From positions 1-64,000 of the forward strand of contig CAISJV010000064.1 in NCBI GenBank assembly GCA_903885795.1: a DNA stretch of 64,000 nucleotides, written 5' to 3'. The notes under the pieces were generated by a model that did not search any database, was not told the DNA's origin, and saw only the letters and a program-made list of their open reading frames with translations. The number at the start of each line of letters is the position of its first letter. Within the stretch, counting starts at the first letter, position 1. Position numbers and translations under genes: made by a program. This document shows positions 166 through 51,793 of this stretch, piece after piece. Source of the stretch: an uncultured delta proteobacterium. GTDB taxonomy: Bacteria; Desulfobacterota; Syntrophia; Syntrophales; UBA8958.

Positions 166-497
166 AGGCGCACCCCGTCCCGCTCAATGGCCTTGAAGAG
201 GGGCGATGCAGACATTGGACCATCTTCCAGCTCTTTGCGCCCAAAGAGAACTGCTGAGATAAATACGCCGTAGCGAAGGTTTATGTCAAATAAAAGATCA
301 AAAACCTTTTCGTACAACGTCGGGGGCAATTCTTCCAGCTCGATCATCACGTCAATATCAGAATCAGCATCGGCAGTGCCCCTGGCTTTTGAACCATAGA
401 GGCGGAGGTCGATCAGTTGAAAGTCGAGGTTCAGCGACTGTTTCAGGTCGTTTAGCGACTGGAGCTCATAAGGTTTAAGATAGGCAATTGTTCCCAT
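162..497 (-). CDS. Minimal nucleotidyltransferase (MNT) antitoxin
   Basis: A 111-residue protein with the nucleotidyltransferase signature GSKARGTADADSDIDV at about residues 35-50; Asp47 and Asp49 are the metal-binding pair. This is the MntA/HEPN-MNT antitoxin family, which adenylylates the cognate HEPN toxin. ATG at 497 is chosen; a TTG at 506 is also in frame and neither has a strong ribosome site. It overlaps the downstream HEPN gene by four bases and is preceded by a good sigma-70 promoter. Family assignment is secure; function as an antitoxin is inferred from the pairing. Confidence 0.8.
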   Translation of the reverse strand: MGTIAYLKPYELQSLNDLKQSLNLDFQLIDLRLYGSKARGTADADSDIDVMIELEELPPTLYEKVFDLLFDINLRYGVFISAVLFGRKELEDGPMSASPLFKAIERDGVRL

Positions 498-553
498 AAC
501 TAACAATCATCATCAAGTTATTTGTTTGATAAATCGCTGATTTTGACTGGAGT

Positions 554-583
554 AGTATAAGTGGCAACGGACTTGTCTGTCAA
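554..583 (-). promoter_or_regulatory. Sigma-70 promoter of the HEPN/MNT operon
   Basis: On the minus strand TTGACA, an 18-base spacer, then TATACT, about 50 bases before the MNT start codon. It lies between the group II intron and the operon, so the operon does not depend on read-through from the intron. Confidence 0.6.
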
Positions 584-702
584 GAAAATATTCCAGAAAA
601 TATTCCTGGTGGCCGCAAAATGTGTGATGCCGACGTTTGTTCTCGGGAGTGAAAAGTGTTTAGTCGAGTGGCGCGAGGGGATCTCACCCTCACGCTCTCC
701 GA

Positions 703-736
703 GAACTGGACGTGACAGTCTCCCGTCATCCAGCTC
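703..736 (-). ncRNA. Group II intron domain V
   Basis: A 34-base hairpin starting GAGC and ending GTTC, with paired arms (GAGCTGGATGACGG and the complementary half ending GTCCAGTTC). This is the catalytic core of group II introns. It begins immediately after the maturase stop codon and is followed by a domain VI-like stem at about 663-702. Confidence 0.8.
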
Positions 737-2029
737 CTATTGTCCAGCCTTAGCCTGAGAGAGCTGCCAATGGGCAAATAGCCTCGGTTGCCTATGCACT
801 CTGTTTTGCAACCACAGAAAAGCCCGCCGCTTATGCTCCTTCAATCTTTTGTATTTCCGGGATGCCCACCGAGCAAGAATATTGTTCAGATGTTGAAAGG
901 TCCGGTAAAGAGCTGATTTGTAGAAGTGTCCGTAGTAGTTGATCCACCCCCTTAATACCGGGTTGATCATCTGGGCCAGTTCGTCCAGAGATTTGTCCGA
1001 GCGCCGGTGCAACTTCCATTGCCTCATGGTATCGCATATCGATTTTGTGGCTTTGTTGCTGATTGCAGGATTAAACCCGACGAAAAATCTACCCTGGCGG
1101 GTTTTCGCTCTCCGGGGTCGAAACGTATACCCCAAAAAATCAAACTTCTGCTCAGGATAATCTCCTCGCCGATCGTCATCCTTGCAGTAAACAATCTTTG
1201 TCTTCTGCACGTTTAGCTCCAATCCGCATTCCGCAAATCGCCGTTCAATCGACTCCCGAAGTCCTTCCGCTTTGGCTTTGCTCCGACAGTGACAAATCCC
1301 ATCATCAGCATACCGCTCAAATGGAATTTGAGGGTACTGCCTATGCATCCACGTATCGAACACATAATGCAAAAAGAGATTCGCAAGCAAGGGACTGATC
1401 ACCCCTCCTTGCGGCGTCCCTTTATCCCGATGAACCAAGCTGCCATCCTCAAATTGCACCGGGGCCTTCAACCATCTTTCGATGTATAGAAGTACCCATT
1501 TGCAATCTGTATGTTTCCTTACCGCCCGCATCAAAAGACCATGATCGATGCTGTCGAAGAAGCCCTTGATGTCGAGGTCCAGAACCCAGTCGTATCGCCA
1601 GCACCGCTGACGTGCAACCCCTATGGCCTCAATCGCAGACTTCTCTGGACGATATCCATAAGAGTCCGGATGGAAATGCTCTTCCAACAGTGGCTCCAGG
1701 TATCGCTTGACTACCGTCTGGGCAATGCGGTCTGCCACCGTTGGTATTCCCAATGGCCGCGTTCCCCCATTGTCCTTCGGTATTTCGACCCGTCGTACAG
1801 GTGGTGGAAAATAGCAGCCTGAAGACATCCGATTCCAGATCTTAAAAAGGTTGTCTTTCAAATCCTCTTCAAACTCTGCAATGGACTGCCCATCTACCCC
1901 AGCGGCTCCTTGGTTCGCCTTTACCCGCTTGTATGCCTCCCATACCTCCCATTTTGAAATACAAAACGGCTTTGCTTTATCCACGAGGCTCCTCCCATTT
2001 CTGGTTGACCTGAAAATAAAGCCAGACAA
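737..2029 (-). CDS. ltrA: Group II intron reverse transcriptase/maturase
   Basis: A 430-residue protein with reverse transcriptase blocks in order: RPLGIPTVADRIAQ (about 91), DLDIKGFFDSID (about 151), GTPQGGVISPLLANLFL (204-220) and the catalytic YADD at 240-243. A maturase (GIIM/X) domain follows at about 340-410, including GWINYYGHFYKSALY. There is no HNH endonuclease domain, so retrohoming would rely on other priming. It sits inside the intron with about 470 bases of upstream intron RNA and domains V-VI directly downstream. The reading frame is intact. The protein copies the intron RNA and assists splicing. Confidence 0.92.
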   Translation of the reverse strand: MSGFIFRSTRNGRSLVDKAKPFCISKWEVWEAYKRVKANQGAAGVDGQSIAEFEEDLKDNLFKIWNRMSSGCYFPPPVRRVEIPKDNGGTRPLGIPTVADRIAQTVVKRYLEPLLEEHFHPDSYGYRPEKSAIEAIGVARQRCWRYDWVLDLDIKGFFDSIDHGLLMRAVRKHTDCKWVLLYIERWLKAPVQFEDGSLVHRDKGTPQGGVISPLLANLFLHYVFDTWMHRQYPQIPFERYADDGICHCRSKAKAEGLRESIERRFAECGLELNVQKTKIVYCKDDDRRGDYPEQKFDFLGYTFRPRRAKTRQGRFFVGFNPAISNKATKSICDTMRQWKLHRRSDKSLDELAQMINPVLRGWINYYGHFYKSALYRTFQHLNNILARWASRKYKRLKEHKRRAFLWLQNRVHRQPRLFAHWQLSQAKAGQ

Positions 2030-28072: not shown

Positions 28073-28471
28073 TTACGACATACCGCGAATATTCTCACGA
28101 AATATTTTTAATTTTGTAACAATTTCTTCTATCCCATTTCCATTTATGGGCAGGACTGTTACACGATCGCTGCCCATTCCCGCTTCTGCAAGGATGGCAT
28201 TGGCCTGTTCTACTCTTTTAGGCGCCCGCAGATTACCTTCAAGGTAATGGCATTCATTTTTAGCACAAGTGACTAAAGCAAGGCCATCTGCTCCCATCTC
28301 GAACGCCTTGAGGAAATAAAGGAGATCTGCTTTGCCGGAACATGGAAGGCTGATCATTTTATGTTCGTCCCCTGCTTCTTCTCCAAACAGGCGGATAAGT
28401 ACATCTTCGTTGAAACAATTTGAACAGTAAAAGACGTGTATTTTCAAATTTTTATGATGTGGAATGTTCAT
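28073..28471 (-). CDS. Second MvhD-like iron-sulfur protein
   Basis: A 132-residue MvhD/FrhD-family protein, Cys pattern FYCSNCFNEDV, LPCSGKADLLYF, TCAKNECHYLEGNLRA. The ATG at 28471 is preceded by GGGGAGG, which excludes the longer frame to 28522. It is the first gene of the ten-gene operon, about 90 bases downstream of the sigma-54 promoter. Two MvhD-like adaptors in one operon suggest two entry points to the HdrA double unit. Confidence 0.87.
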   Translation of the reverse strand: MNIPHHKNLKIHVFYCSNCFNEDVLIRLFGEEAGDEHKMISLPCSGKADLLYFLKAFEMGADGLALVTCAKNECHYLEGNLRAPKRVEQANAILAEAGMGSDRVTVLPINGNGIEEIVTKLKIFRENIRGMS

Positions 28472-28557
28472 ATCATCCTCCCCGCGACTGATAAGGGATA
28501 AGTGAATCCTTTGTTCGCACAAATCACAGAAACGTACCCAACGGCAGGGGCAATTAA

Positions 28558-28573
28558 AGCAAATTTAGTGCCA
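28558..28573 (-). promoter_or_regulatory. Sigma-54 promoter of the Hdr/MetFV/glutamate synthase operon
   Basis: Minus strand TGGCACTAAATTTGCT: GG and GC elements at the exact -24/-12 spacing, matching TGGCAC-N5-TTGCW fully. It lies 87 bases upstream of the first start codon. A NifA-like activator is encoded at 42676. Confidence 0.75.
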
Positions 28574-30867: not shown

Positions 30868-31872
30868 TTAAATTGACATCTCTTCATATACTTCCGCGAA
30901 TGGCCTGAGATCACCATATTCAAGCATTGTAGACATGGCATGATTTTCAATCGGGATGCCGGCCTCATGGACGGCGGCCGTCGGATTGAGGCCGCCGATG
31001 AGGATCATGCCTATCTTATGAGTATCCACTGGTATTTGGCATACGGCTTCTCCGATTTCCCCGGTAGCTAAAACGCCATTCATCCCCGCCTTCCTGAGAT
31101 TGCTGACGATCTCCCTCACGTTATCCATACATGGCGCAGGAATTTCTCTAAAATTCGCCAATATCTTTCCCTCCCCGTTGGCAATAACTTCTCGGACCGA
31201 AGTCATTTTACCGCGAATAAAAGCCTCTGACGGGTCAAGGGAAGAACCGGAATAGTAAATCAGTTCCACAAAACGGAGGGGACGTCCCTTGCTCATCTGC
31301 AGGATTCCTCCGAACTTGGAATCCATGGGAATCCCGTTTTTCAGCATGACTCCGTTCGTAACAATGCTGCATACGGTGGCAAAGCCTACCTTGCCTGCCG
31401 GGACTAAGGCATCCCCAATACGCTGGCCCTCAGGGGCTACTGCGACAAGATCGCTGACCTTCAGGTTTGCCTCAAAAGCAGCAGCCATGACCTTTAAAGA
31501 CTCAGAAAGGTGCTCCCGGGGTAAAAAGGAGATATTAATCGGAATGAGTCCCTGTCGCCGGACAGGATCGAAGGTGGTACGGAAGGAGAGAATTTCAATG
31601 CGGGAGATGACAAATCCGATTTTATCATGGACCATGGCATGCTGGATTTCCTCGATACCCATGTTGGTGATGGCGCGCCCATCGAGTTTACCAATGAGTT
31701 CCGTAAGACCGCGCTCATCCATAAAGCGAAGATGATAGCGGACGGCCCTTTCGCTCAGAGCGATTCCATAATCCTGAAGACGGCGGGAAATTATACGAGC
31801 CCCGACAGGAGCCACAGAGTCGCGGACAATTTTCAGGATAAGGAGTGTCTTCCGTTCTATTTCCTGAGACAT
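30868..31872 (-). CDS. nrpR: NrpR-type (DUF128) nitrogen regulator
   Basis: A 334-residue protein: an N-terminal winged helix (ERKTLLILKIVRDSVAPVGARIISRRLQ, then SERAVRYHLRFMDERGL) and one DUF128/NRD effector domain with IGMILIGGLNPTAAVHEAGIPIENHAMS at the end. In methanogens NrpR represses nitrogen genes and is released by 2-oxoglutarate. Bacterial homologues are much less studied. The ATG at 31872 follows AAAGG; the frame extends to 31926 but that would reach the promoter. It has a single NRD, unlike double-NRD forms. It lies in front of a glutamate-synthase-like gene and has a palindrome abutting its -35 box, suggesting autoregulation. Confidence 0.85.
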   Translation of the reverse strand: MSQEIERKTLLILKIVRDSVAPVGARIISRRLQDYGIALSERAVRYHLRFMDERGLTELIGKLDGRAITNMGIEEIQHAMVHDKIGFVISRIEILSFRTTFDPVRRQGLIPINISFLPREHLSESLKVMAAAFEANLKVSDLVAVAPEGQRIGDALVPAGKVGFATVCSIVTNGVMLKNGIPMDSKFGGILQMSKGRPLRFVELIYYSGSSLDPSEAFIRGKMTSVREVIANGEGKILANFREIPAPCMDNVREIVSNLRKAGMNGVLATGEIGEAVCQIPVDTHKIGMILIGGLNPTAAVHEAGIPIENHAMSTMLEYGDLRPFAEVYEEMSI

Positions 31873-31916
31873 GGGCGATACCTTTTTACTAGGCAAGCGG
31901 TAATCTATTGCCGACC

Positions 31917-31945
31917 CCTCTATCACTGAGGAAAGAGCCTGTCAA
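31917..31945 (-). promoter_or_regulatory. Promoter of nrpR
   Basis: Minus strand TTGACA, 17-base spacer, TAGAGG (weak -10). The -35 box abuts the inverted repeat at 31946-31968. Confidence 0.45.
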
Positions 31946-35872: not shown

Positions 35873-36214
35873 TCATCCGATGGCGCTGCTGCCCCGCTCT
35901 CCCGTCCTGATCCTCATCACGTCGTGCAGATCGAAAACGAAGATCTTGCCGTCGCCAACCTCGCCGGTGCGGGCGCTCTTGGTGACGGCGTCGATGGCCC
36001 GATCCAAAAAATCTTCATTGACGGCGATCTCAAGTTTCACCTTTTTCAGCAGGCTTCCCGCTTCCTTGGTCCCCCGGTATATTTCCGTGACGCCCTTTTG
36101 CCTGCCCCGGCCCAGGACATTCGATACCGTCACCAGCGGTACTTCCGCTTTTTCCAGGGCGGTCATGACTTCGTCCAGTTTATGGGGCTGAATAATGGCA
36201 ATTATGTATTTCAT
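35873..36214 (-). CDS. glnK: PII signal-transduction protein without the uridylylation tyrosine
   Basis: A 113-residue PII protein: start [17 protein letters not shown]-loop [17 protein letters not shown], and the [16 protein letters not shown]-terminus. Tyr46 is present, but position 51, the uridylylated Tyr in enteric GlnB/GlnK, is Glu ([11 protein letters not shown] against YRGAEYMVDFL). Regulation must be by ligand binding (ATP/ADP/2-oxoglutarate) alone, or by another modification. It follows amtB by 16 bases with AAAAGGAGA as ribosome site, the normal arrangement for a PII that blocks the transporter. Confidence 0.92.
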
Positions 36215-36230
36215 GGTTTTATCTCCTTTT

Positions 36231-37463
36231 CTATTCGATTACCGTGTAGGCGGCTTCACTCTGTTGCGTCAGGTCGAGACCGATGGTTTCGTCCTTTTCC
36301 TTGACCCGGGCACACATGAGGGCGTCCACCAGCTTGTAGATTATAAAGGTCATGACGCCGGCAAAGAGGGGCGCAACGACGGCCATAATGAGTTGCGGCC
36401 AGAGCTGGGCACCGCCGAAAAAGAGACCGTTCGCCCCGGCGGAGTTGACGGCCTTTTCCGCGAAGAGACCTACGGCGATGGTTCCCCAGATGCCACCGAC
36501 CCCATGGACACCGAAGGCGTCCAGGGCGTCGTCGTATCCGAGCTTAGCCTTGATCACGGCGACGGCCAGATAGCAGATGAAAGCAACGATAATGCCGATG
36601 AAGATGGCATTCATGGGGTTTACAAATCCGCAGGCCGGAGTGATGGCCACCAGTCCCGCTACGGCCCCCGTAACAGTACCTAAAATCGTGGGCTTGCCGT
36701 GTTGTTGCCACTCGATAAGTGCCCAGGTAAGCCCCGCCGCCGCTGTGGCAATGTGGGTGGTGACAAAGGCGTTGGCCGCCAGATCGTTGGCTGCCAGGGC
36801 GGAGCCCGCATTGAAACCGAACCATCCGAACCACAGCAGTGCCCCTCCTAAGACCGTAAATGGCAGGTTATGGGGCCGGAAAGGGGTCTTCTGGTAGCCT
36901 ACCCGTTTGCCCAGCAGCAGGCACAAGACGAGGGCCGACACCCCGGAGCTGGCATGAACGACGATACCCCCGGCAAAATCCAGGCCGCCGAGATTCCTCA
37001 TCCAGCCGCCCGTTCCCCAGACCCAGTGGGCTAGGGGATCATAGACTAAGGTCGCCCAGAGGATCGTAAAGACCAGAAAGGCGGAGAACTTCATCCGTTC
37101 CGCAAAGGCGCCGATCATGAGGGCCGGGGTGATGACGGCGAACATGCACTGAAAAATCATGAAGACGGAATGGGGGATCGTGGCGGCATAATCAGCGTTG
37201 GGTTGCCCCCCCACATAGTTGAGCCCCGCCCACTTCAGACCGCCGATGATCCCCTGCCCCGTATCGGGACCGAATGACAGAGAATAGCCAAAGAGAACCC
37301 ACTGTAAAGAAATTACGCACATGATGATGAAGCATTGCATCAGAATAGAAAGAACGTTCTTCCTCCTGACAAGACCTCCGTAAAAGAAGGCCAGCCCCGG
37401 TATCGTCATGGCAAAAACCAGGGCCGTGGATACTAATACCCAAGCCGTATCGCCCGTATTCAT
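36231..37463 (-). CDS. amtB: Ammonium transporter
   Basis: A 410-residue Amt family membrane protein with multiple hydrophobic helices. Visible motifs: [28 protein letters not shown] at the N-terminus, the pore His in [15 protein letters not shown] and the second in [18 protein letters not shown]. The ATG at 37463 follows AGGAGG; the upstream extension of the open frame to 37532 would run into the sigma-54 promoter. No long signal peptide is seen. It imports ammonium/ammonia and is gated by the PII protein encoded next. Confidence 0.95.
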
Positions 37464-37515
37464 AAAAAACCTCCTGACAAAATTATTTCCCTGAAGTGAA
37501 GGATAGTCTGGGAAG

Positions 37516-37531
37516 ATCAAAGTCCGTGCCA
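37516..37531 (-). promoter_or_regulatory. Sigma-54 promoter of amtB-glnK
   Basis: Minus strand TGGCACGGACTTTGAT: perfect -24 element and correct spacing, with GA in place of GC at -12. It is 53 bases upstream of the amtB start, as expected for nitrogen-regulated amtB genes. Apart from it, 37464-37830 shows nothing I can identify. Confidence 0.65.
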
Positions 37532-37830
37532 AGGGAGGTTTATGAAGTCATGTATCTGATTATATTGTATTATTTCTTGTTGATCCCTATGCCGTCCGGC
37601 ATAGAAGTTGGAACAGTTTTGTTTGATCCATGGTGGTATAGACAAAAATGTATCAATGGGAAGGGATACTCTTCACTAGGGTGAGAACGGGATAAGCCCC
37701 CCGGGACAAATCCCTGTCGTCTTTTTGGATAATGACTACTTTAACGTATATTCAGCCGAAGGCCTGGTGGCTTGACAGCTGGGGCATTCAACCGTTCTTA
37801 CCGAAATGAGCGGCCACCGGCCGGATGTCC

Positions 37831-39980: not shown

Positions 39981-42575
39981 TCATATACCGTAACAGACCA
40001 GTTTCTGGTTGACCACGTCTGACAGCAGCAACAATCCGTGTTCCCGGACATCATAAACCCGGACGATCTTTTCATAGCAGCTTTCACGTGGTGCCAAGTC
40101 GGTCAGCATGTTGGGCATGCTTTCCAGCCATTCACAATTGAAAAGGACATCCTTCCGATCGGGATAAATGGCCATGTAGAAGATGTCCATTTCCACAAGA
40201 TCCTGAAAGAAATGGGTCCCGAAGGACAGGTCGGGAATAAGACTGCCGTCCTGATGGGCTATCTCCGCGATCGCGATGATATTGTTGATCTCCGAAAAGG
40301 TCACCGGAACGCCCATGGCCGGCGTAGTAGTCCCCCAGCGGCCAGGACCGAAGAGGGCAGTCGGCGTTTCCTCACGGTTCTCGATCAGTTTGTTAAGGCG
40401 ACCCACCAGGCGGGCTACATCGTATTTTTCGGAAAGGGACAACCTCGTGTACCCCTGAGGGTCCACATAGATAATCCGGGCGAGGGGCTGGGAGACGCTA
40501 CCCCCCATGAAGTTCCCTTCCTGGCGGAGGAGGATGCGATTCTTCATGATCTTTTCCGGAATGGCTACGCAAACGTTCTGTCCCTTGGTCTGAAAGGGCC
40601 TACACTGGAGCAGATTGACCTGCAAACGACCTTCGGAGTTGAAATTTGCCGTAAATTCTATGTCTACGGGATATTGATAGACCCCTTCCAGGGTCTTGAG
40701 CATACGGGACATGATCTCTGTGAAGGGCGTTGTTGCGAGAAGCTCATCAAACGTGAGTATCCAGATGTCTTGAGCAGCCCGCCCCGTCGACCGCAGGCGT
40801 TCCGAGGCTTCCGTATCTCTTGCGCCCACAAGGTCCAGGCGTACGTCAAGCCCTTCATTGATGACCTGGAGCAGGGAAAGGGCATGGAAGCGGTTTTCCT
40901 CAAGATTCAGCACATCGACATCATGCTGGGAGAAGCGACGTATATCCGCCATACCCCCATGGGGCTTTACCAGCGGGGCATCGAGGGCCACGATACGGGG
41001 ATAGTCATTTTCCACCCGGTTGACGGCCCGCGTCCCCAAACCAAAAACAATGCGCAGCATGCCGGCCCGGGGGTCCATACCCTGCCTCCACACGAAGGTG
41101 TTGTAGGAAAGGCCCACCCCGGCTACCTCGGGGAAGAAATAATGCTTGCGATAGGCCCCTGATACCCGTTGTACCAGGAGTGCCATCTGCTCATCATGCT
41201 GATCGAGGCCACGCTGGAGACGATAAGTCAGGGCGTCCTCGTTCATGGTACTGGCAAAGACAAGGCGGACCGATTCTTCAAAGGCTTCGTAGCGTTGCTC
41301 CGGTGTTCCCTGGTTGACGCAGAAAAAACTCTCGTATTTACGGGCGAAAGCATTCCCGAACGCATCCTCCAGGAGACTGCTGGAACGGACAATGATCGGC
41401 GACTGTCCGAAATACTCGAGCATCAACTGAAACTGTTCCTTGACCTCTTCTGGAAAGACACCCCTGAGCATCTTGGTTTTCAACTCCCTGGCGCTCTCAA
41501 AATAACCGTCCTTGGTCTTTTGGGACATGAGGGTTTTCCACCAGCCATTCTGAACGATATAGGAATAGAAGACATCAGAGCCGATATAGAAGGAATCGTG
41601 AAGCTCCAGGCAACCGGACCAGTCATATTCCTCATCCCGACGGAGAATATTTCTTGCCAGGAGCATGCCAACCGACTTCCCGCCAATGAAGCCGGTGCCG
41701 ATAAGGCGGTCCTTGATGCCCAGGAGATCTTCAAGGGTAAAATAGTCCCTGGCCAATGAAAGCATCCGCTTCTCCCTCCCGATCATGACCCGGGAAAGTT
41801 GCTTGATAATCTCTTTTTTTTCTTCTGTGGCTTCTGGGTTTCCCAGAACTTCTCTGGCACGTAGAAAGATGCGATCCCAGTAATCGAGATTTCGCTCCAC
41901 ATTGACCGAACTCCTATGGGCCAGAAATGAGAATAGCTGGGTGGCGTCCACACTGTTCATGATGGGGATATATTTATCCCCCTCCGTAATGTGGGGCAGG
42001 AACATCGTGGGCGTGTAGCGGTGCCAGGCTTTCAAGGGATGGACACAGATCTTTCCCTGATAGTTATAAACGTCAAGGAGCACCTGGGTCGTCTCCCGGA
42101 TGCGGGCAACGGTCTTGAAGGAATGGTGGCCCCGTAAAATGGCGAAATAAGCTACCGTATTGAGCTCGAAAAGATAAGGGCATGTAATAACAAAAAAATT
42201 ACCGATCATCAGGTCGGTCGCCCAGGCCATGAGCAGGTCGGAAAGAGAATCAAATACGTAGAAGACATCCCGCCCTTCCTGGCGGATGATGTTATGGACC
42301 TGCGTGGAAAAGGATTCGAAGCCCATATCGGCGCTAAGTTTATAGATGATAACCTTACCGGTGGCTTCGAGAAGGGGCGCATGGCGCGCGAAACGCATGT
42401 AAACCACCCGTTCATTGTTTTCCACGGCCTTATCTACGAAAGGAAGGACGAAATACTTGTAATCTTCAATATCGTCCACCTGAAGAACCACGTTGTCGCC
42501 CGTCTGCAAGTAATTTAGAACGTCATCCAAACCCCGGATACCAGAACTGACTCGGGAAAAAGATACCATGCTCAA
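39981..42575 (-). CDS. KaiC-like domain fused to PEP-synthase-type ATP-grasp domain
   Basis: An 864-residue protein. Residues about 1-240 resemble a KaiC/RadA-type ATPase (SSGIRGLDDVLNYLQTGDNVVLQVDD; DVFYVFDSLSDLLMAW) but the Walker A Lys-Ser/Thr is missing, so ATP binding is doubtful. From about 300 on it has the ATP-grasp domain of PEP synthase/PPDK (GGKSVGMLLARNIL, SPIIVRSSSLLEDAFGNAFARK, QRVSGAYRKHYFFPEVAGVG, and a C-terminal segment LFGPGRWGTTTPAMGV). The phospho-His swivelling domain and PEP barrel are absent. The substrate is unknown. It is divergent from the NifA-like regulator and next to the PHA-synthase-like gene. Signalling or pyruvate/PEP sensing is possible but not shown. Confidence 0.75.
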   Translation of the reverse strand: MSMVSFSRVSSGIRGLDDVLNYLQTGDNVVLQVDDIEDYKYFVLPFVDKAVENNERVVYMRFARHAPLLEATGKVIIYKLSADMGFESFSTQVHNIIRQEGRDVFYVFDSLSDLLMAWATDLMIGNFFVITCPYLFELNTVAYFAILRGHHSFKTVARIRETTQVLLDVYNYQGKICVHPLKAWHRYTPTMFLPHITEGDKYIPIMNSVDATQLFSFLAHRSSVNVERNLDYWDRIFLRAREVLGNPEATEEKKEIIKQLSRVMIGREKRMLSLARDYFTLEDLLGIKDRLIGTGFIGGKSVGMLLARNILRRDEEYDWSGCLELHDSFYIGSDVFYSYIVQNGWWKTLMSQKTKDGYFESARELKTKMLRGVFPEEVKEQFQLMLEYFGQSPIIVRSSSLLEDAFGNAFARKYESFFCVNQGTPEQRYEAFEESVRLVFASTMNEDALTYRLQRGLDQHDEQMALLVQRVSGAYRKHYFFPEVAGVGLSYNTFVWRQGMDPRAGMLRIVFGLGTRAVNRVENDYPRIVALDAPLVKPHGGMADIRRFSQHDVDVLNLEENRFHALSLLQVINEGLDVRLDLVGARDTEASERLRSTGRAAQDIWILTFDELLATTPFTEIMSRMLKTLEGVYQYPVDIEFTANFNSEGRLQVNLLQCRPFQTKGQNVCVAIPEKIMKNRILLRQEGNFMGGSVSQPLARIIYVDPQGYTRLSLSEKYDVARLVGRLNKLIENREETPTALFGPGRWGTTTPAMGVPVTFSEINNIIAIAEIAHQDGSLIPDLSFGTHFFQDLVEMDIFYMAIYPDRKDVLFNCEWLESMPNMLTDLAPRESCYEKIVRVYDVREHGLLLLSDVVNQKLVCYGI

Positions 42576-42675: not shown

Positions 42676-44238
42676 ATGAAATCAGTTTATTTATGCCCAT
42701 TTTTGTCTAATATGAGCTCACATAATTACGAAGAATTAGCGGCTCTGCATGCCATCGCGAAGACCCTCGCCCAGCCCTGGGAGCTGCGGGATCAGCTCGA
42801 ACAGGTTCTGGGCGAGATGCACGCCCATCTGGGTATGCAACGTGGTATGATCTCACTTCTGGATCGGGACACCGGGGAGGCATGGCTGGAAGTGGCCCAC
42901 GACGTCAAACTTGATGGAGTGGAAATAACTTATCAAATCGGTGAAGGCATCACGGGAAAGGTGGCCCAGACCGGCCGTCCCATGGCCATCCCGAATCTGG
43001 GCAAGGAAACCCTTTTTCTGGACCGGACCGGGGCGCGAAAAAACCTGAACCGTAATGAATTGGCCTTTCTGTGCGTTCCCATCATATATGATTCCCGGGT
43101 TGTAGGCATCCTTTCCGCCGACAAGGGCGCCCAGGATGTTGCAGATCTGGACCAGGAAATGTCCATGCTGTCCTCGGTCGCTGAACTTATCGCCAAAGCG
43201 GTTCATATCCTTGCTCTTGAGGAAGAAAACCGCCGCCTTCGCAGCCTCGTCAACCAGGGCAAGTCCCCTACCATTGACATTATCGGACATTCGAAGGGCA
43301 TGCAGGAGGTCTTCGGCCTGATCCGCCATGTCGCCGATTCGAGCACCACCGCCCTGATTCTTGGGGAAACCGGCACGGGCAAGGAGTTGATTGCCAAGGC
43401 TATTCACATCAACAGCGCCCGCAGCAAGGGTCCCATGATCCAGGTCAACTGCGCGGCCATACCGGATACCCTTATAGAGAGTGAATTGTTCGGACACGAG
43501 CGGGGTGCCTTTACCGGCGCCATGAGACAGCACCGGGGCCGGTTTGAGGAGGGCAACAACGGCACGATTTTCCTTGACGAGGTTGCCGAGCTATCGGCTG
43601 CGGCGCAGGCCAAGCTTCTCAGGGTCCTTCAGGAAAAACAGTTCCAGCCTCTGGGCTCCCCTCGCCTCGTCAAAACAAATGCCCGCGTTATCGCCGCCAC
43701 CAACCGCCGCCTGGAGGATTGTGTTGCCTCAGGACAATTTCGGACAGATCTCTATTATCGCCTGAGCGTTTTCCCCATTTACATACCTCCCCTGCGGGAT
43801 AGGGGAAATGACATTATCCTTCTGGCCGATCATTTTGTTCTCAAGTATTCAAAAGAATTGAATAAACCTGTCAAGAGGATAACCACCGCCGTCATCGAGG
43901 CCTTTCTTTCCCACCATTGGCCGGGAAATGTTCGGGAACTGGAAAACTGTATCGAACGGGCAATCCTGCTGACCGAGGGGGATGCTATTGAAATGATTCA
44001 TCTGCCCCCTTCCTTGCAAACAAAGGGTCGGGAAGAAGCAGAAAAGGAAGCGGGAAGGTTCAGCACCGTTATCGAAAGCCAGGAGCGAGCCCTGATTGTC
44101 GAGGCACTGAAAGAGGCCCATGGCAATCAGAGTCAGGCGGCCAGAAATCTCGGCACGACCAAACGGATCATCCAGTACAAGATCCAGAAGATGGGCATCG
44201 ATCCATGGAAATTCCGGACCGCGAAAAACAACCGGTGA
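42676..44238 (+). CDS. NifA-like sigma-54-dependent activator (GAF-AAA+-Fis)
   Basis: A 520-residue protein. A GAF domain (about 30-180, [20 protein letters not shown] ... [14 protein letters not shown]) precedes an AAA+ domain (about 205-430) with Walker A GETGTGKE, the sigma-54 contact loop GAFTGA, Walker B FLDEVAEL and the RDRGNDI sensor region. A Fis-type helix-turn-helix ends it ([28 protein letters not shown]). There is no receiver domain, so a small ligand sensed by GAF, or PII contact, is likely instead of phosphorylation. Start at 42676 or the ATG at 42712; neither has a clear ribosome site. It lies just upstream of the sigma-54 promoter of the glutamate synthase/glutamine synthetase operon. 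Confidence 0.9.
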
Positions 44239-44509: not shown

Positions 44510-45625
44510 ATGTGTCGTCTGTTTGCCATTACCAGCAAGGAACCCCTTTCCCCGATGGCGGCAATTCATGCCTTGAACGTCATGAAAGAAGGTCATGATG
44601 GGTCGGGGGTGGGACTGCTTCTAACCGACCTCGGGGGAAGCTTCGAGCGTTTCAAGGGGGCGCCGATCCTCTCGGGCATCTTTTCTAACGAGGGAATCCG
44701 GGCCTTGGACCGTTACATGCTGGATCTGGATTTCATGGTTAAATATAAGCTCTCTATCCGGCCGGCCAAGACACCTCCCCCCGGAACGCCAAAACGTGAC
44801 AATTATCTCGTCCGGGTTTACGACTATCCTCCGGACTGGCAGTCCCTGAGCAAGGAAGAACTCGAATACCGTCTCATGTTGACTCGGCTCAAACTACGAC
44901 AGATGGGCGAACAGGACGGATCGATGATCGTATTCAGTTTTTGGCCCGATGTGATCATGCTTAAGGAGGTGGGAGACCCTCTTGCCCTAGCCGACTATTT
45001 GGGACTCGACAACGAGGAATTCAAAGCCCGAATCATCCTCGCCCAGGGCCGGCAAAACACCAATTACGCCATCGACATTTATGCCTGCCATCCCTTTTTC
45101 ATTCAGGGATACTCTACGATGACCAATGGCGAAAACACAGCTTTTGTAACCATTCGCGAATATCTGGCGTCACGGAATTACGCCGGCTACATGGGCTACC
45201 AGTCCGACTCGGAGGTCTTTACCCACATCCTCCATTTTGCGCAGCAAAAGCTCGGCATGGGGCTGGATATGTACAAACATCTCCTGACGCCCCTCAAAGA
45301 GGAAGAACTCCAACGCCACCCCCAGGGAGAAAGGCTGCGGGCCGTCAAGCGCACCTGCCGTCCCCTGATTATCGACGGCCCCAATTGTGTAATCGGCTGC
45401 CTGCCGGACCGGACGCTATTCATGGTTCAAGACAGCAAAAAGCTTCGTCCCGGTATCGTGGGCGGCGCCTCCGGCATGTTCGCCTTTTCCTCCGAAATGT
45501 GCGGTCTCGATGCGGCCATTCCGGATCGGAACAAAAGCGAAGACTTTCAGCCCATGAAATATGACACTGTCATGGTCCCCCCAAATCGACAGGAGGTGGT
45601 GCGATGGAACCAATGGGAAAGATAA
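44510..45625 (+). CDS. Class II glutamine amidotransferase (GltB1/GlxB type)
   Basis: A 371-residue N-terminal-nucleophile amidotransferase starting MCRLFAITS, with catalytic Cys2 exposed after Met removal, then EGHDGSGVGLLL, NYAIDIYACHPFFIQG and MTNGENTAFV. It hydrolyses glutamine and channels ammonia to the FMN glutamate synthase encoded next. It is a separate subunit here, as in archaeal glutamate synthases, whereas the paralogue at 21411 is fused to a GXGXG domain. The 3' end overlaps the next gene by 22 bases. First gene of the sigma-54 operon. Confidence 0.88.
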   Translation: MCRLFAITSKEPLSPMAAIHALNVMKEGHDGSGVGLLLTDLGGSFERFKGAPILSGIFSNEGIRALDRYMLDLDFMVKYKLSIRPAKTPPPGTPKRDNYLVRVYDYPPDWQSLSKEELEYRLMLTRLKLRQMGEQDGSMIVFSFWPDVIMLKEVGDPLALADYLGLDNEEFKARIILAQGRQNTNYAIDIYACHPFFIQGYSTMTNGENTAFVTIREYLASRNYAGYMGYQSDSEVFTHILHFAQQKLGMGLDMYKHLLTPLKEEELQRHPQGERLRAVKRTCRPLIIDGPNCVIGCLPDRTLFMVQDSKKLRPGIVGGASGMFAFSSEMCGLDAAIPDRNKSEDFQPMKYDTVMVPPNRQEVVRWNQWER

Positions 45626-47238
45626 GCCCCTCTACCCTGAGCAAAAGCGACCTCCCTTGGCAGATCCTCTGGAATAAGGAGGCCTGCACCCTCTGTGGCC
45701 GTTGTACCGCTGTGTGCCCGGTCCGGGCCATCGAATTGGGCGTCCACCGCAAACGCGTAGTCCAGACAGTAATCGGCCTCACGGAGAAACCAGGCAATGT
45801 CTTTACCGTATATCATGGCGTCGATCAGCGGACCGATCCAGCCCATGCCTGTATCGGCTGTGGCATGTGCGATCTCGTCTGTCCCAATGCGGCTATTCGG
45901 CCCATCCGGAGCACGGACGTCGATAAACTCCGCTTCCATGTCAATCAGGGGGGGATGCCCCGACGCCGGGGCGGTCGCCGCAACGATCCCCGCAGTGTCC
46001 TCGACGAAATCAAATTCATCCGTATCTCCATGCTCACAGACCCGGCCCTCGATGCGGGCCGTCACGATTTTGAACTGCGGACCCTGCTGGGAAGAATCCT
46101 GCCGGCAGAAGACCTGGCCAAGACTTTAAGTGAAAACGGCTGGATACCCCCCGTGCGCGAGATCTACCCGCTGATCATCGGAGGAATGTCCTTCGGCGCC
46201 CTGTCGCCGAATATGTGGGAAGGCCTGCAAATGGGCGTTGCCTACCTGAACGAGGAAAAAGGAATGCCCGTACGCATCTGCACGGGCGAGGGCGGATGCC
46301 CGCCGCGATTGCTGCGGTCCCGCTTCCTGAAGTATGTAATCCTCCAGATCGCCAGCGGTTATTTCGGGTGGGATGAAATCATCCATGCCCTGCCGGAAAT
46401 GAGGGAAGATCCCTGTGCCATCGAGATCAAATATGGCCAGGGCGCGAAGCCCGGCGACGGCGGGCTTCTCATGTGGTACAAGGTCAACAGTCTCATCGCC
46501 GCCATCCGTGGCGTACCGCAGGGAATCAGCCTTCCCAGTCCGCCGACCCATCAGACCCTTTATTCCATTGAAGAGTCGGTCGCAAAGATGATCCAGTCCA
46601 TGGCCATGGCCTGGGGATTCCGGGTGCCTGTCTATCCGAAGATATCGGCCACAAGTACGACCCTGGCGGTACTGAACAACCTGACCCGGAACCCTTACGC
46701 CTCCGGTCTGGCCATCGACGGCGAGGACGGCGGCACAGGCGCGGCCTACAATGTCTCCATGAATCATATGGGACATCCCATTGCCAGCAACATCCGGGAC
46801 GCCTATCTGAATCTCGTCAAGATCGGCAAACAGAATGAAATACCCCTCTTTGCCGGTGGTGGGATCGGCAAAAACGGGAATCTGGCGGCTAACGCCGCGG
46901 CCCTGATCATGCTGGGAGCAAGCGGCGTTCAGATCGGCAAATACATCATGCAGGCGGCGGCGGGTTGCCTTGGCTCCGAGGCTGACCGTTGCAACATCTG
47001 CAATATCGGCCTGTGTCCCAAGGGGATCACCTCCCAGGATGCCAGGCTGTACCGGCGTCTGGACCCGGAACAGGTAGCGGAGCGTGTTGTGGACGTCTAT
47101 CTGAGTTTTGACCAGGAACTCAAGAAGATTATGGCGCCCCTCGGCCGCTCGACGTCACTGCCGATAGGCATGTCCGACGCCCTGGGCATCGCCGATGGAG
47201 ACGCCGCGGCAAGACTTCAGATTCGCCATGTTTTATAG
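45604..47238 (+). CDS. FMN/ferredoxin-domain glutamate synthase large-subunit core
   Basis: A 544-residue protein: an N-terminal two-cluster ferredoxin (CTLCGRCTAVCP; CIGCGMCDLVCP) followed by the GltS FMN barrel (IIGGMSFGALSPNMWEGL, EIKYGQGAKPGDGGLL, IDGEDGGTGAAY, FAGGGIGKNGNLAANAAALIMLGA) and the 3Fe-4S-type motif CNICNIGLCPKG. AGGAGG precedes the ATG. This is the 2-oxoglutarate-amidating core; all key motifs are present. It is the fourth GltS-type barrel in the window and lies in a complete set with amidotransferase, GXGXG and GltD parts. Confidence 0.93.
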   Translation: MEPMGKISPSTLSKSDLPWQILWNKEACTLCGRCTAVCPVRAIELGVHRKRVVQTVIGLTEKPGNVFTVYHGVDQRTDPAHACIGCGMCDLVCPNAAIRPIRSTDVDKLRFHVNQGGMPRRRGGRRNDPRSVLDEIKFIRISMLTDPALDAGRHDFELRTLLGRILPAEDLAKTLSENGWIPPVREIYPLIIGGMSFGALSPNMWEGLQMGVAYLNEEKGMPVRICTGEGGCPPRLLRSRFLKYVILQIASGYFGWDEIIHALPEMREDPCAIEIKYGQGAKPGDGGLLMWYKVNSLIAAIRGVPQGISLPSPPTHQTLYSIEESVAKMIQSMAMAWGFRVPVYPKISATSTTLAVLNNLTRNPYASGLAIDGEDGGTGAAYNVSMNHMGHPIASNIRDAYLNLVKIGKQNEIPLFAGGGIGKNGNLAANAAALIMLGASGVQIGKYIMQAAAGCLGSEADRCNICNIGLCPKGITSQDARLYRRLDPEQVAERVVDVYLSFDQELKKIMAPLGRSTSLPIGMSDALGIADGDAAARLQIRHVL

Positions 47239-47249
47239 GAGACCTATCC

Positions 47250-49592
47250 ATGCCCTATAAACCCACCATAATAATCCCGGGGATGAAAAACGGCGTCCGG
47301 GTGGACACCCGAACCCTTGAGGCGGCGGTTCAGGCGGCAATCCGTGACGGCCACCGTTGTGTCGAGATTCACGCCTACGGGCAACATGGCATCGGCGGCC
47401 GCCTCTGGAAGGCGGGAGAAGAAGAGATATCGATCCGCGTTCTCGGACCAGCGGGACAGCGCGTTGGCGCCATGGGATTTCCCAATGCAACCATTGACGT
47501 CTTCGGCCCATGCTCCGACGATGTCGGCTGGCTCAATGCGGGCGCCCGGATCATCGTCCGTGGCAACGCCACCAACGGCGTGGCTAATGCCATGTCTCAG
47601 GGCAAGATTTATATTGCCGGTGATATCGGCGCCCGGGGCATGACGATGACCAAGCATAACCCCCGCTTTGCCCCTCCGGAGCTATGGGTCCTGGGCAGTG
47701 TTGGCGACTCCTTCGCTGAATTTATGGCCGGCGGCATTGCCGTAATCTGCGGACACGACACCCCGCGCTATGAAAATATTATGGGCTACCGACCCTGTGT
47801 GGGGATGGTAAGCGGCAGGATATTCTTCCGGGGACCCCATCAGGGCTTCAGCGAAGAAGATGCAAAGCTGTCCATCCCCGACAACGACGAATGGAAATGG
47901 CTGAAGGATAACATATCGATTTTTCTCAAGGCCACCGGAAGAACGGAATTATATGCCGTCCTCACCGCCGACCGCGCTGCCTGGCAGATACTGACCGCCC
48001 GCCAGCCGTTCGAAAAAGTCCGCAAACCCGCCCGGAGTATGCACCAATTCTGTGAAGAGATCTGGGACAAGGAACTTGGTATAGGCGGCCTCATCGGCGA
48101 TCTGACGGACATTCCCCGGAGCGCCATTGACATGATTCCCACCGGCGAGCTGCGCCGCTATCTTCCCCTCTGGGAAAACGAAAAGCATCTTCCTCCCTGC
48201 CAGTCCTCCTGCCCTACAGGCATTCCCGTTCAGAAGCGCTGGAGCCTGATCCGCAGCGGAAAGATGGATGAAGCCGTGGACCTGGCACTTAACTATACCC
48301 CCTTCCCCGCCACGGTCTGCGGCTATCTCTGCCCCAATCTATGCATGGCAAATTGCACCCGCCAGATCTCACAGATGCCGGCACTGGATGTGGCCGGTCT
48401 CGGCAAGGCCTCCCTTACGGCCAGGACGCCGAAACCCGCCCCGACCTCGGGCAAGACAACCGCCATCATCGGCGGCGGTCCGGCAGGTCTTTCCGCTGCC
48501 TGGCAGTTGTGGCTGATGGGACACGCCCCCGTTATCTATGAGGTCCAGGACCGCCTGGGAGGGAAGATCACCGCCACGATCCCCAGGAGCCGCATCCCTG
48601 ATGAAATTGTGGACCATGAACTGAAGCGGGTCCAGGAGCAGATCAGTCAGGTCCACCTGAAGAAACCGCTCTCGAAAAAAGAGTTTCAGAAGATCAAAGG
48701 AAAGCATGACATGGTGGTCATTGCGGCGGGGGCACAAAAGCCACGCCTGATACCCGTGCCGGGCCAGGAAATGGTCATGGCGGCTCTTGACTTCCTCCGG
48801 TTGAGTAAGGCGAATCAGGTTAAGGTTGGGGAAAAGATCGTCATCATCGGGGCCGGCAACGTCGGCTGCGACGCCGCCGCGGAAGCTGCACGCCTGGGCG
48901 CCAAGGATATTACCCTGATCGACATCCAGGAGCCGGCCTCTTTCGGTGTGGAAAGAAAGCACGCCGAGGCCGCCGGGGCCAAATTTCTCTGGCCTAAATT
49001 CACGAAGGCCGTTACGGCAAATGGCGTGGAGTTGACCGATGGAACATTGCTTCCCGCCGACACGGTCATCATGGCCGTCGGCGACGCCCCCGATTTGACC
49101 TTCCTCCCCGAAGAGATTATTCTTGACAGGGGATTCATCGCCGTTAACGGCCATTATCAAACAAGCGATCCCCAGGTTTTCGCCATCGGCGATGCCGTGC
49201 GTCTCGGCTTGCTGACGGAGGCTATTGGCGCGGGCAGGATCGCCGCCCGGACGATTGACAATATCCTGCGTGGGAGGGAGAATTCATACGATAACCTGCC
49301 GACCATGGAACCGGCACGGATTCATCTGGAATATTACGATCCCCGGGCCAACCCGGCCGGAGACTTGAGTTCATGTTCAAGCCAGTGCGCCTCCTGCGGA
49401 GCCTGCCGGGACTGCGGACTCTGCGAGACCCTCTGCCCGGGCAATGCCATCTCCCGGCGTTCACTGGAAGGGGACGCCTATGAATATATAGTGGACGGCG
49501 AAAAGTGCATCGGTTGCGGCTTCTGCGCTGCCGCCTGCCCCTGCGGGATATGGGAACTCGTGGAAAATACACCTTTAGAAAAGGAAAAATGA
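47250..49592 (+). CDS. GXGXG domain fused to GltD-like flavoprotein and ferredoxin
   Basis: A 780-residue three-part protein. Residues about 1-230 are the GXGXG beta-helix of GltB (HAYGQHGIGGRLWKAGEE, IDVFGPCSDDVGWLNAG, YIAGDIGARGMTMTK). Residues about 310-690 are a GltD-type reductase: Cys-rich PCQSSCPTGIPVQKRW and CGYLCPNLCMANC, FAD motif IIGGGPAGLSAAWQLWLMG and NAD(P)H motif IIGAGNVGCDAAAEAARLGA. The C-terminus is a ferredoxin (CASCGACRDCGLCETLCP, CIGCGFCAAACP). It thus joins the structural and the electron-input parts of glutamate synthase in one chain. It starts 11 bases after the FMN subunit, with TAGGAGACC as ribosome site. Confidence 0.9.
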   Translation: MPYKPTIIIPGMKNGVRVDTRTLEAAVQAAIRDGHRCVEIHAYGQHGIGGRLWKAGEEEISIRVLGPAGQRVGAMGFPNATIDVFGPCSDDVGWLNAGARIIVRGNATNGVANAMSQGKIYIAGDIGARGMTMTKHNPRFAPPELWVLGSVGDSFAEFMAGGIAVICGHDTPRYENIMGYRPCVGMVSGRIFFRGPHQGFSEEDAKLSIPDNDEWKWLKDNISIFLKATGRTELYAVLTADRAAWQILTARQPFEKVRKPARSMHQFCEEIWDKELGIGGLIGDLTDIPRSAIDMIPTGELRRYLPLWENEKHLPPCQSSCPTGIPVQKRWSLIRSGKMDEAVDLALNYTPFPATVCGYLCPNLCMANCTRQISQMPALDVAGLGKASLTARTPKPAPTSGKTTAIIGGGPAGLSAAWQLWLMGHAPVIYEVQDRLGGKITATIPRSRIPDEIVDHELKRVQEQISQVHLKKPLSKKEFQKIKGKHDMVVIAAGAQKPRLIPVPGQEMVMAALDFLRLSKANQVKVGEKIVIIGAGNVGCDAAAEAARLGAKDITLIDIQEPASFGVERKHAEAAGAKFLWPKFTKAVTANGVELTDGTLLPADTVIMAVGDAPDLTFLPEEIILDRGFIAVNGHYQTSDPQVFAIGDAVRLGLLTEAIGAGRIAARTIDNILRGRENSYDNLPTMEPARIHLEYYDPRANPAGDLSSCSSQCASCGACRDCGLCETLCPGNAISRRSLEGDAYEYIVDGEKCIGCGFCAAACPCGIWELVENTPLEKEK

Positions 49593-49615
49593 TTGAAAAA
49601 ACATACGGAGGAATT

Positions 49616-51793
49616 ATGAAAAAGACATGCCCAGTTATTGCGTCGGAAAGAAGCTACGTAGCTGAAAAAGAAAAGTTTATCCCCATTTCGGAGTATTACG
49701 GCGAGGACACCTTCAACGCCAAAATCATGAAGGTCAAGCTTCCCAGGGATGTGTTCAAGAAAATCATCGAAGCCATTAATGAAGGCACCATCCTGGACAT
49801 TGAAACCGCCAATATCGTGGCCCATGCCATGAAAGAGTGGGCTCTCGCCAAAGGCGCCACCCATTTTGCCCATTGGTTCCAGCCTATGACGGGCATTACG
49901 GCAGAAAAGCATGATGCGTTTATCGATCCCTTCGGGGTCGGAGAAGTTATCGAACGGTTCTCAGGTAAGCAGCTTGTCCAGGGTGAACCGGATGCATCGA
50001 GTTTCCCGAGCGGCGGCATCCGGGCCACCTTCGAAGCCCGAGGCTATACGGCTTGGGACATGTCATCGCCAGCCTTTATCCGGCGCAACGGCATCTCGAC
50101 AACCCTGTGTATCCCGACGGCATTTATATCCTACACCGGAGAGGCCCTCGACAAGAAAACCCCGCTTCTCAGATCGAACAAGGCGGTCAATAAAAGCGCT
50201 GTGAATATGATGAAGCTCCTCGGCGATAAAGACGTGAAAAGGGTTTACGCAACCCTGGGGCCGGAACAGGAGTACTTCCTCATCGATACGGACTATTTCT
50301 ACAAACGTCAGGATCTGGTCCTCGGCGGCCGGACCGTCATCGGGGCGCCTCCCGCAAAAGGGCAGGAACTGGAGGACCAATATTTCGGAAGTATCAAAGA
50401 AAGAATTTCTTCCTATATGCACGACATGGAAGAGGAACTTTTCAAACTGGGCGTTCCTGCGAAGACCAGGCACAATGAGGTCGCCCCCAGCCAGTTCGAG
50501 CTCGCGCCGGTCTTTGAGGAAGCCAACTTGGCCGTTGACCATAATCAGATCGTTATGGACACGATGCAAGCGGTGGCGAAGAAACACAAACTTGCGTGCC
50601 TGCTCCATGAAAAACCCTTTGCGGGGATCAACGGCTCAGGCAAACACTTAAACTGGTCGCTCTCCGACAACAAAGGGAACAACCTGTTGAACCCCGGTCA
50701 AACACCTCATGAAAATATTCAGTTCCTGGTCTTCCTGGTCGCCACCATCCGCGCCGTCCACAAACACGCCGATATTCTGCGCGCTTCCGTCGGCTCCTAT
50801 GCCAACGACCATCGTCTCGGCGCCAACGAAGCGCCACCGGCCATCATTTCCGTCTTCCTCGGCGACCAGCTCACCAAGATTCTCGATGATATCGAAAGAG
50901 GCAAGGTAACCAAGGCCACAGACAGCGAGATCATTGACCTCGGCATTGCCTCGCTGCCCATGGTCAGCAAGGATAACACCGATCGGAACCGGACGTCGCC
51001 CTTCGCCTTCACAGGCAACAAATTTGAATTCCGAACCGTCGGTTCATCCCAGTCTATTTCCTTTCCTGCCGCAGTTCTCAACACGATCGTCGCCGAAAGC
51101 CTCGATTATCTGGCAGAGAAGATCAAGGACCAGTGCGGGAAGAACATCAACATGAACCAATGCGTTCTCACCGTGATCAAAAAAGAAATGAAGGAAGTCA
51201 AAGCGGTCCTTTACAACGGTGATAACTACACCCCGGAATGGGAAAAGGAGGCGGCCAAAAGAGGGCTCCCGAATGACAAAACCACACCGGTCTCCTTGAA
51301 GGCCCTGATTACCAGAAAAGCGCTGGAGATGTTTGATGGATATAAGGTTCTTTCCAACGTCGAGCTTAAATCACGCTACTTAATCCACCTGGAGAGGTAT
51401 ATCAAAGACTTGGAGATCGAGGCTAAATGTATGGATAGTATCTGCCTGAGCCAGGTCATCCCGGCGGCAACAGCCTATCAGAAGGGGCTCTCGAAAGCAA
51501 TCATCGGCACCCGGGACGCCCTCGGCAAATCGGCCGATCTTTCCGCACAGCAGGAGCTGTTAAAGAGGGTTACGGAGTTGGTGAATAAAATCTATGGCAC
51601 AAATAAAGACATCCTTGCTAAAATCGCCGCTGCCTCATCCGTGCACGACGAACAGAAAAAAGCGGAGATGCTTTGCAGCAAAGTCAAACCCAAGATGAAT
51701 GAGCTTCGGGACTACGTTGATGAACTGGAAGGTCTGGTGGACGATGAATTGTGGCCAATGCCGAAGTTCTGGGAAATGCTCTTCATCAACTGA
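49616..51793 (+). CDS. glnN: Glutamine synthetase type III
   Basis: A 725-residue GSIII protein, much longer than GSI. Motifs: GATHFAHWFQPMTGITAEKHD, LGPEQEYFLIDTDYF, TRHNEVAPSQFELAPVFEE, INGSGKHLNWSLSDN, SYANDHRLGANEAPP. It joins ammonia to glutamate with ATP and forms dodecamers. There is no adenylylation tyrosine loop of the GSI-beta type, so control is likely transcriptional (the sigma-54 promoter at 44401). The ATG at 49616 follows GGAGG. Last gene of the operon, so GS and GOGAT are co-produced as a complete ammonia-assimilation cycle. Symbol glnN follows common use for GSIII. Confidence 0.95.
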   Translation: MKKTCPVIASERSYVAEKEKFIPISEYYGEDTFNAKIMKVKLPRDVFKKIIEAINEGTILDIETANIVAHAMKEWALAKGATHFAHWFQPMTGITAEKHDAFIDPFGVGEVIERFSGKQLVQGEPDASSFPSGGIRATFEARGYTAWDMSSPAFIRRNGISTTLCIPTAFISYTGEALDKKTPLLRSNKAVNKSAVNMMKLLGDKDVKRVYATLGPEQEYFLIDTDYFYKRQDLVLGGRTVIGAPPAKGQELEDQYFGSIKERISSYMHDMEEELFKLGVPAKTRHNEVAPSQFELAPVFEEANLAVDHNQIVMDTMQAVAKKHKLACLLHEKPFAGINGSGKHLNWSLSDNKGNNLLNPGQTPHENIQFLVFLVATIRAVHKHADILRASVGSYANDHRLGANEAPPAIISVFLGDQLTKILDDIERGKVTKATDSEIIDLGIASLPMVSKDNTDRNRTSPFAFTGNKFEFRTVGSSQSISFPAAVLNTIVAESLDYLAEKIKDQCGKNINMNQCVLTVIKKEMKEVKAVLYNGDNYTPEWEKEAAKRGLPNDKTTPVSLKALITRKALEMFDGYKVLSNVELKSRYLIHLERYIKDLEIEAKCMDSICLSQVIPAATAYQKGLSKAIIGTRDALGKSADLSAQQELLKRVTELVNKIYGTNKDILAKIAAASSVHDEQKKAEMLCSKVKPKMNELRDYVDELEGLVDDELWPMPKFWEMLFIN

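Follow-up and report, generated by a model that had tools for sequence, protein, structure and literature searches.

A gene of about 862 codons, carried by a 64,000-nucleotide stretch of DNA from an uncultured delta proteobacterium (hereafter, the window), could well encode an ATP-dependent, autophosphorylating histidine regulator of ammonium and glutamate metabolism, with chances that we rate as even. This protein would be a PPDK-derived phosphotransferase in which a KaiC-like domain serves for sensing or docking. Its relatives adjoin the glutamate dehydrogenase (GDH) gene in most genomes, which makes a role as a phosphorylation switch for both ammonium and glutamate metabolism probable.

GDH and glutamate synthase (GOGAT) stand at the meeting point of carbon and nitrogen metabolism, and their control in anaerobic and syntrophic bacteria is little understood. 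In one phylum, at least 26 families have a conserved kinase-like gene next to GDH; this gene is a direct and testable candidate for such a control, in which the phosphotransfer machinery of PPDK and the KaiC fold would have been recycled into signalling. No article joining KaiC or ATP-grasp with GDH was found in the open-access literature.

Gene and domain organization

The single open frame is a complete gene (Table 1); residues are numbered from its ATG codon unless TTG numbering is indicated. The encoded protein, whose AlphaFold model has a mean pLDDT of 86.8, includes three parts, i.e. a KaiC-fold domain, an ATP-grasp domain and a C-terminal domain. Its sole Pfam match is PPDK_N (5.8e-50, residues 296–677 in TTG numbering). 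Together with the open frame and the structural similarity to KaiC (Z 20.6), this match bears out the fusion of a KaiC-like domain to a PEP-synthase ATP-grasp domain proposed by the first-pass annotation. The absence of a PEP domain, also proposed, was confirmed: the protein stops after the C-terminal domain and includes no PEP/pyruvate barrel. The NCBIfam models of PEP synthase score far under their cut-offs, the equivalog TIGR01418 giving 42 bits for a cut-off of 739.75. A replacement of PEP synthase was ruled out, as the gene lacks the barrel and the same genome encodes a separate complete PEP synthase. An anti-phage or phage protein was also ruled out, as neither PADLOC nor PHROGs gave any match.

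Table 1. Location of the gene, its domains and key codons, its neighbours in the window, and related regulators in other loci (locus handle before the coordinates)
Feature	Position	Strand	Remarks
Whole gene	39981..42575	-	Start TTG 42575 or ATG 42569
KaiC-fold domain without P-loop, residues 1-218	41916..42569	-	AlphaFold model; KaiC Z 20.6
Site of the missing Walker A loop, residues 32-39, DDIEDYKY	42453..42476	-	76-homologue alignment
PPDK/PEP-synthase-type ATP-grasp domain, residues 259-663	40581..41795	-	PPDK_N 5.8e-50; RPH/PEPS fold
Arg410 codon, ATP-grasp FAG motif	41340..41342	-	Gly in nearly all homologues
C-terminal domain, residues 664-862, predicted swivelling beta/beta/alpha fold	39984..40580	-	
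Invariant His786 codon, candidate phospho-acceptor	40212..40214	-	
GAF + sigma-54 activator + Fis-HTH regulator, NifA-like	42676..44238	+	Divergent to gene
GATase-type (GOGAT domain 1-like) protein	44510..45625	+	GATase_6, below cut-off
Glutamate synthase core domain with ferredoxin-type clusters	45604..47238	+	
GXGXG + NAD(P)H oxidoreductase, GOGAT partner	47250..49592	+	
Type III glutamine synthetase	49505..51793	+	
PII protein + AmtB ammonium transporter	35873..37532	-	
NrpR-type nitrogen regulator (NRD1_2 + winged helix)	30868..31926	-	
KaiC + HTH_3 + cupin proteins	L120:2574-3884, L121:11495-12808, L124:4549-5862, L060:6532-7824, L125:4879-6186, L128:12521-13615		

A KaiC fold devoid of P-loop

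Although no Pfam model matches residues 1–218, a structure search using the AlphaFold model aligned 205–209 of them with KaiC (Z 20.6, 2.8–2.9 A). In an alignment of 76 homologues, which are 36–85% identical to the window protein, Walker A gives way to acidic residues and a GDN-V-V signature, whereas Asp107, in a Walker-B-like position, is invariant. The loss of the Walker A lysine had been noticed at first reading; it proves to be wider, as the entire P-loop is missing in 76/76 homologues and no intact one is found anywhere in the alignment. Thus, the protein resembles KaiC and other RecA-like ATPases by its N-terminal fold (Z about 20) but differs from them by the lack of P-loop in its whole family, and it is therefore not a KaiC-type ATPase.

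The same P-loop-less KaiC domain is combined with HTH and cupin domains in regulators of about 440 aa (Table 1), and a nitrogen-related signal may be what the KaiC domain detects. These KaiC, HTH_3 and cupin proteins, which likely constitute a family of nitrogen-responsive transcription regulators, are encoded next to FMN glutamate synthase, NrpR, AmtB or GDH.

A conserved ATP-grasp domain

The ATP-grasp part is structurally close to RPH and PEP synthase (Z 22.8–26). K298, R395, E638, Q655 and R657 are invariant in the 76 homologues and S414 nearly so. Matched by motif, K298, R395 and S414 are the counterparts of Lys22, Arg117 and Thr136 of RPH, whose importance for ATP handling was shown by mutagenesis (PMC4844700); these ATP-handling residues are thus conserved. 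The window copy carries an Arg410 instead of a nearly invariant Gly, a substitution shared only with locus L004; judging by its identical score, L004 looks like the copy carried by G301, a congener without GDH. The activity of the window copy may be altered.

The C-terminal domain, a candidate phospho-His domain

In the alignment with the PEP synthase structure 2ols (residues 13..466 on 259..862, 365 aligned, Z 24.2; AlphaFold model), the C-terminal domain occupies the place of the His domain, after the ATP-grasp domain. GPGRWG and S-x-G-[TS]-H-F-F are conserved across its homologues; GPGRWG (741–746), H786 and E793 are invariant in the 76 homologues, and the [ST]-H-F-F motif holds the His in nearly all homologues as well as in the short and receiver-type relatives described below. 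In the model, His786 is the first residue of a helix (786–793) preceded by a strand (766–770) and a loop and followed by a strand (797–801), a strand-loop-helix-strand layout that parallels a stretch of 27 residues of PEP synthase.

When modelled alone, the C-terminal domain has a mean pLDDT of 88.3. When searched alone, it gives weak structural matches (Z about 4–6, best 6.2), including six PPDK central domains, the EIN-Ntr phosphotransfer protein and a pyruvate kinase C-terminal domain, but also chaperonin apical domains, RraA and LD-carboxypeptidases; in the SCOP classification, most of these share the swivelling beta/beta/alpha fold. Foldseek returned nothing at E <= 0.001 for this domain alone, the canonical T-[CS]-H-A motif is missing from it, and PF00391, the phospho-His domain of PEP-utilizers, finds no place at the gene in its own genome. 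Homology to the His domain of PEP synthase at the profile level was rejected, as column-shuffled controls outscored the real pair in hhalign. Fold prediction thus matches the swivelling phospho-His type by fold and position, whereas the profile comparison finds no homology. The C-terminal domain is probably a hidden swivelling His domain, a reading to which we give moderate confidence because of the profile results. Two earlier claims, that the protein is devoid of a phospho-His domain and that, lacking its usual acceptor, it must modify something else, are probably wrong, the former because of the swivel-type predicted fold and the invariant His786, despite the lack of motif or profile matches. 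Indeed, a cryptic His-bearing swivel domain located after an ATP-grasp domain would make self-phosphorylation, followed by regulation or transfer, likelier.

Distribution and linkage to GDH

The family is widespread in bacteria, in many families and several phyla. Among the best 80 of 247 confirmed relatives from a search of named genomes, most are deltaproteobacterial (Syntrophus, Smithella, Desulfobacteraceae), while MAGs bearing the labels Planctomycetota, Nitrospirae, Spirochaetes and Clostridia contribute others. Among 297 genomes of the phylum, relatives, either full-length or partial, occur commonly. They display three N-terminal architectures: KaiC-type, short type and receiver-type, the last carrying Response_reg domains ahead of the same ATP-grasp module. 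These receiver-domain fusions point to signalling.

In this phylum sample, GDH lies at 5 kb or less from at least 55 of the 82 family places, whatever the architecture (at least 36/52 for the KaiC-type, 9/18 for the short type and 10/12 for the receiver-type), whereas none of 30 ordinary PEPS/PPDK-type genes used as control is near GDH. GDH was found in 35 of 43 distant loci versus 0 of 20 random regions and, for loci of at least 12 kb, an ammonium or glutamate gene in 61 of 69 versus 1 of 20 random regions. At the genome level, GDH is present in 79/80 genomes harbouring the family versus 114/217 genomes devoid of it (p 4.8e-17, kinship ignored). In most cases GDH directly adjoins the gene, often at less than 200 bp and sometimes at 4 bp, and it can be convergent (30 cases), upstream on the same strand (15), downstream on the same strand (10) or divergent (1). 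Repeated rearrangement with retention of adjacency argues for a functional link between the gene and GDH. In Desulfobacteraceae (L047, L049, L053, L063 and others), a conserved set comprises, in order, the gene, GDH, a 220-aa unknown protein without any Pfam match, a sigma-54 regulator and a Cache-domain histidine kinase.

The nitrogen-linked signalling role suggested at first reading is thus strongly supported by gene neighbourhoods, although the main partner is GDH, which the window lacks; the link to carbon storage, also suggested, is not general.

Proposed mechanism, known systems and alternative explanations

According to the mechanism that we favour, ATP held by the ATP-grasp domain would phosphorylate His786 on the swivelling C-terminal domain, and the phosphorylated form would control GDH by binding or phosphotransfer or, in species without GDH such as that of the window, GOGAT and glutamine synthetase (GS) or their regulator. 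The KaiC-like domain would sense a metabolite or dock a partner without hydrolysing ATP. A tentative extension is that these proteins constitute a superfamily of histidine kinases that derives from PPDK and has so far gone unrecognised. Its inputs would be interchangeable (P-loop-less KaiC, receiver or short N-terminus), and it would provide a general post-translational control of GDH and ammonium assimilation in several bacterial phyla.

An experimentally tested precedent is VadK (Rv1127c) from Mycobacterium tuberculosis, which harbours an ATP-grasp and a His domain but no PEP domain, autophosphorylates on His422, and was reported to regulate and interact with enzymes of the methylcitrate cycle (PMC13400623). 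Both proteins have a PPDK-derived ATP-grasp without PEP domain. However, VadK is described as ATP-binding and His domains alone and has the methylcitrate cycle as its target, whereas the present protein has an added KaiC fold, a highly divergent C-terminal domain and a genomic link to GDH and ammonium assimilation. In our reading, the family would work like VadK; membership is not claimed, the C-terminal domain being outside PF00391 by sequence. PEP synthase, PPDK and rifampin phosphotransferase share with the protein the ATP-grasp domain and, judging from the fold and placement predicted for it, probably a swivelling His domain, but the protein has no PEP/pyruvate barrel, rifampin-binding domain or canonical His motif.

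Other explanations deserve consideration. The absence of the canonical T-[CS]-H-A motif and of any match to the PEPS His domain profile would fit the kinase or transferase without its own His acceptor envisaged at first reading, whose ATP-grasp domain directly transfers phosphate to an outside protein or small molecule and whose C-terminal domain only binds a partner; this is unlikely given an invariant His rightly placed in a swivel-like fold straight after the ATP-grasp domain. The protein could also be a metabolic dikinase whose substrate is a small molecule from glutamate metabolism, the KaiC-like domain standing in for the PEP or rifampin-binding domain as acceptor site. Precedents exist in RPH and HpeHI, PPDK-type modules that evolved to phosphorylate small molecules. 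HpeI (9goj), the ATP-grasp component of the two-component dikinase HpeHI, is a structural neighbour of the protein (Z 18.5); HpeHI differs from it in phosphorylating aromatic compounds by means of a separate acceptor-binding domain (PMC12167813). However, GDH-linked relatives swap the KaiC-like domain for a short N-terminus or receiver domains, so that no fixed acceptor domain is conserved, and such a dikinase appears improbable.

The lack of P-loop in the KaiC domain and the Arg in the FAG motif of the window copy could also evoke a pseudoenzyme, i.e. a non-catalytic ATP/ADP sensor that would bind GDH or GOGAT to signal the energy state. The invariance of Lys298, Arg395, Glu638, Gln655, Arg657 and His786 in the 76 homologues argues for catalysis in the family and renders this explanation improbable.

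The neighbourhood of the gene in a genome without GDH

The window genome is the only family-bearing genome of the phylum sample that lacks GDH. None was detected in it, either by family or by using a GDH query from a near relative that matches six congeners, and the window harbours no GDH remnant. G301 also lacks GDH, whereas six congeners have it. Thus, G301 and the window genome keep the gene without GDH, whereas the complete congener G303 has GDH without the gene; therefore, GDH is not an obligatory target. In L073, a near relative (90% identity), the gene is followed by a PHA-synthase-like gene, GDH and NrpR. As the window copy, without GDH, lies among NifA-like, GOGAT, GS-III, AmtB/PII and NrpR genes, its role is probably the control of ammonium and glutamate metabolism at large.

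The divergent arrangement with the NifA-like gene, noticed from the start, also exists in several close relatives. This neighbour reaches 467 bits with the NifA model TIGR01817 (cut-off 528.85) and is therefore only NifA-like. The co-occurrence holds in Syntrophales but is lineage-specific: elsewhere, the nearby sigma-54 regulators are more distant (37–46% identity). Orthologues of the GATase-type protein are also found beside the gene in relatives.

NrpR is known from methanogens. Here, an NrpR-type regulator belongs to a bacterial nitrogen cluster, where it adjoins an FMN glutamate synthase-like gene; in relatives, it is paired with GDH.

A scan for sigma-54 promoters gave matches at chance level overall. 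They include a perfect consensus, TGGCAC-N5-TTGCT (28558-28573, minus strand), upstream of a short ORF (28073-28522, minus strand), and a site with one mismatch (37516-37531, minus strand) directly upstream of the likely true start of AmtB.
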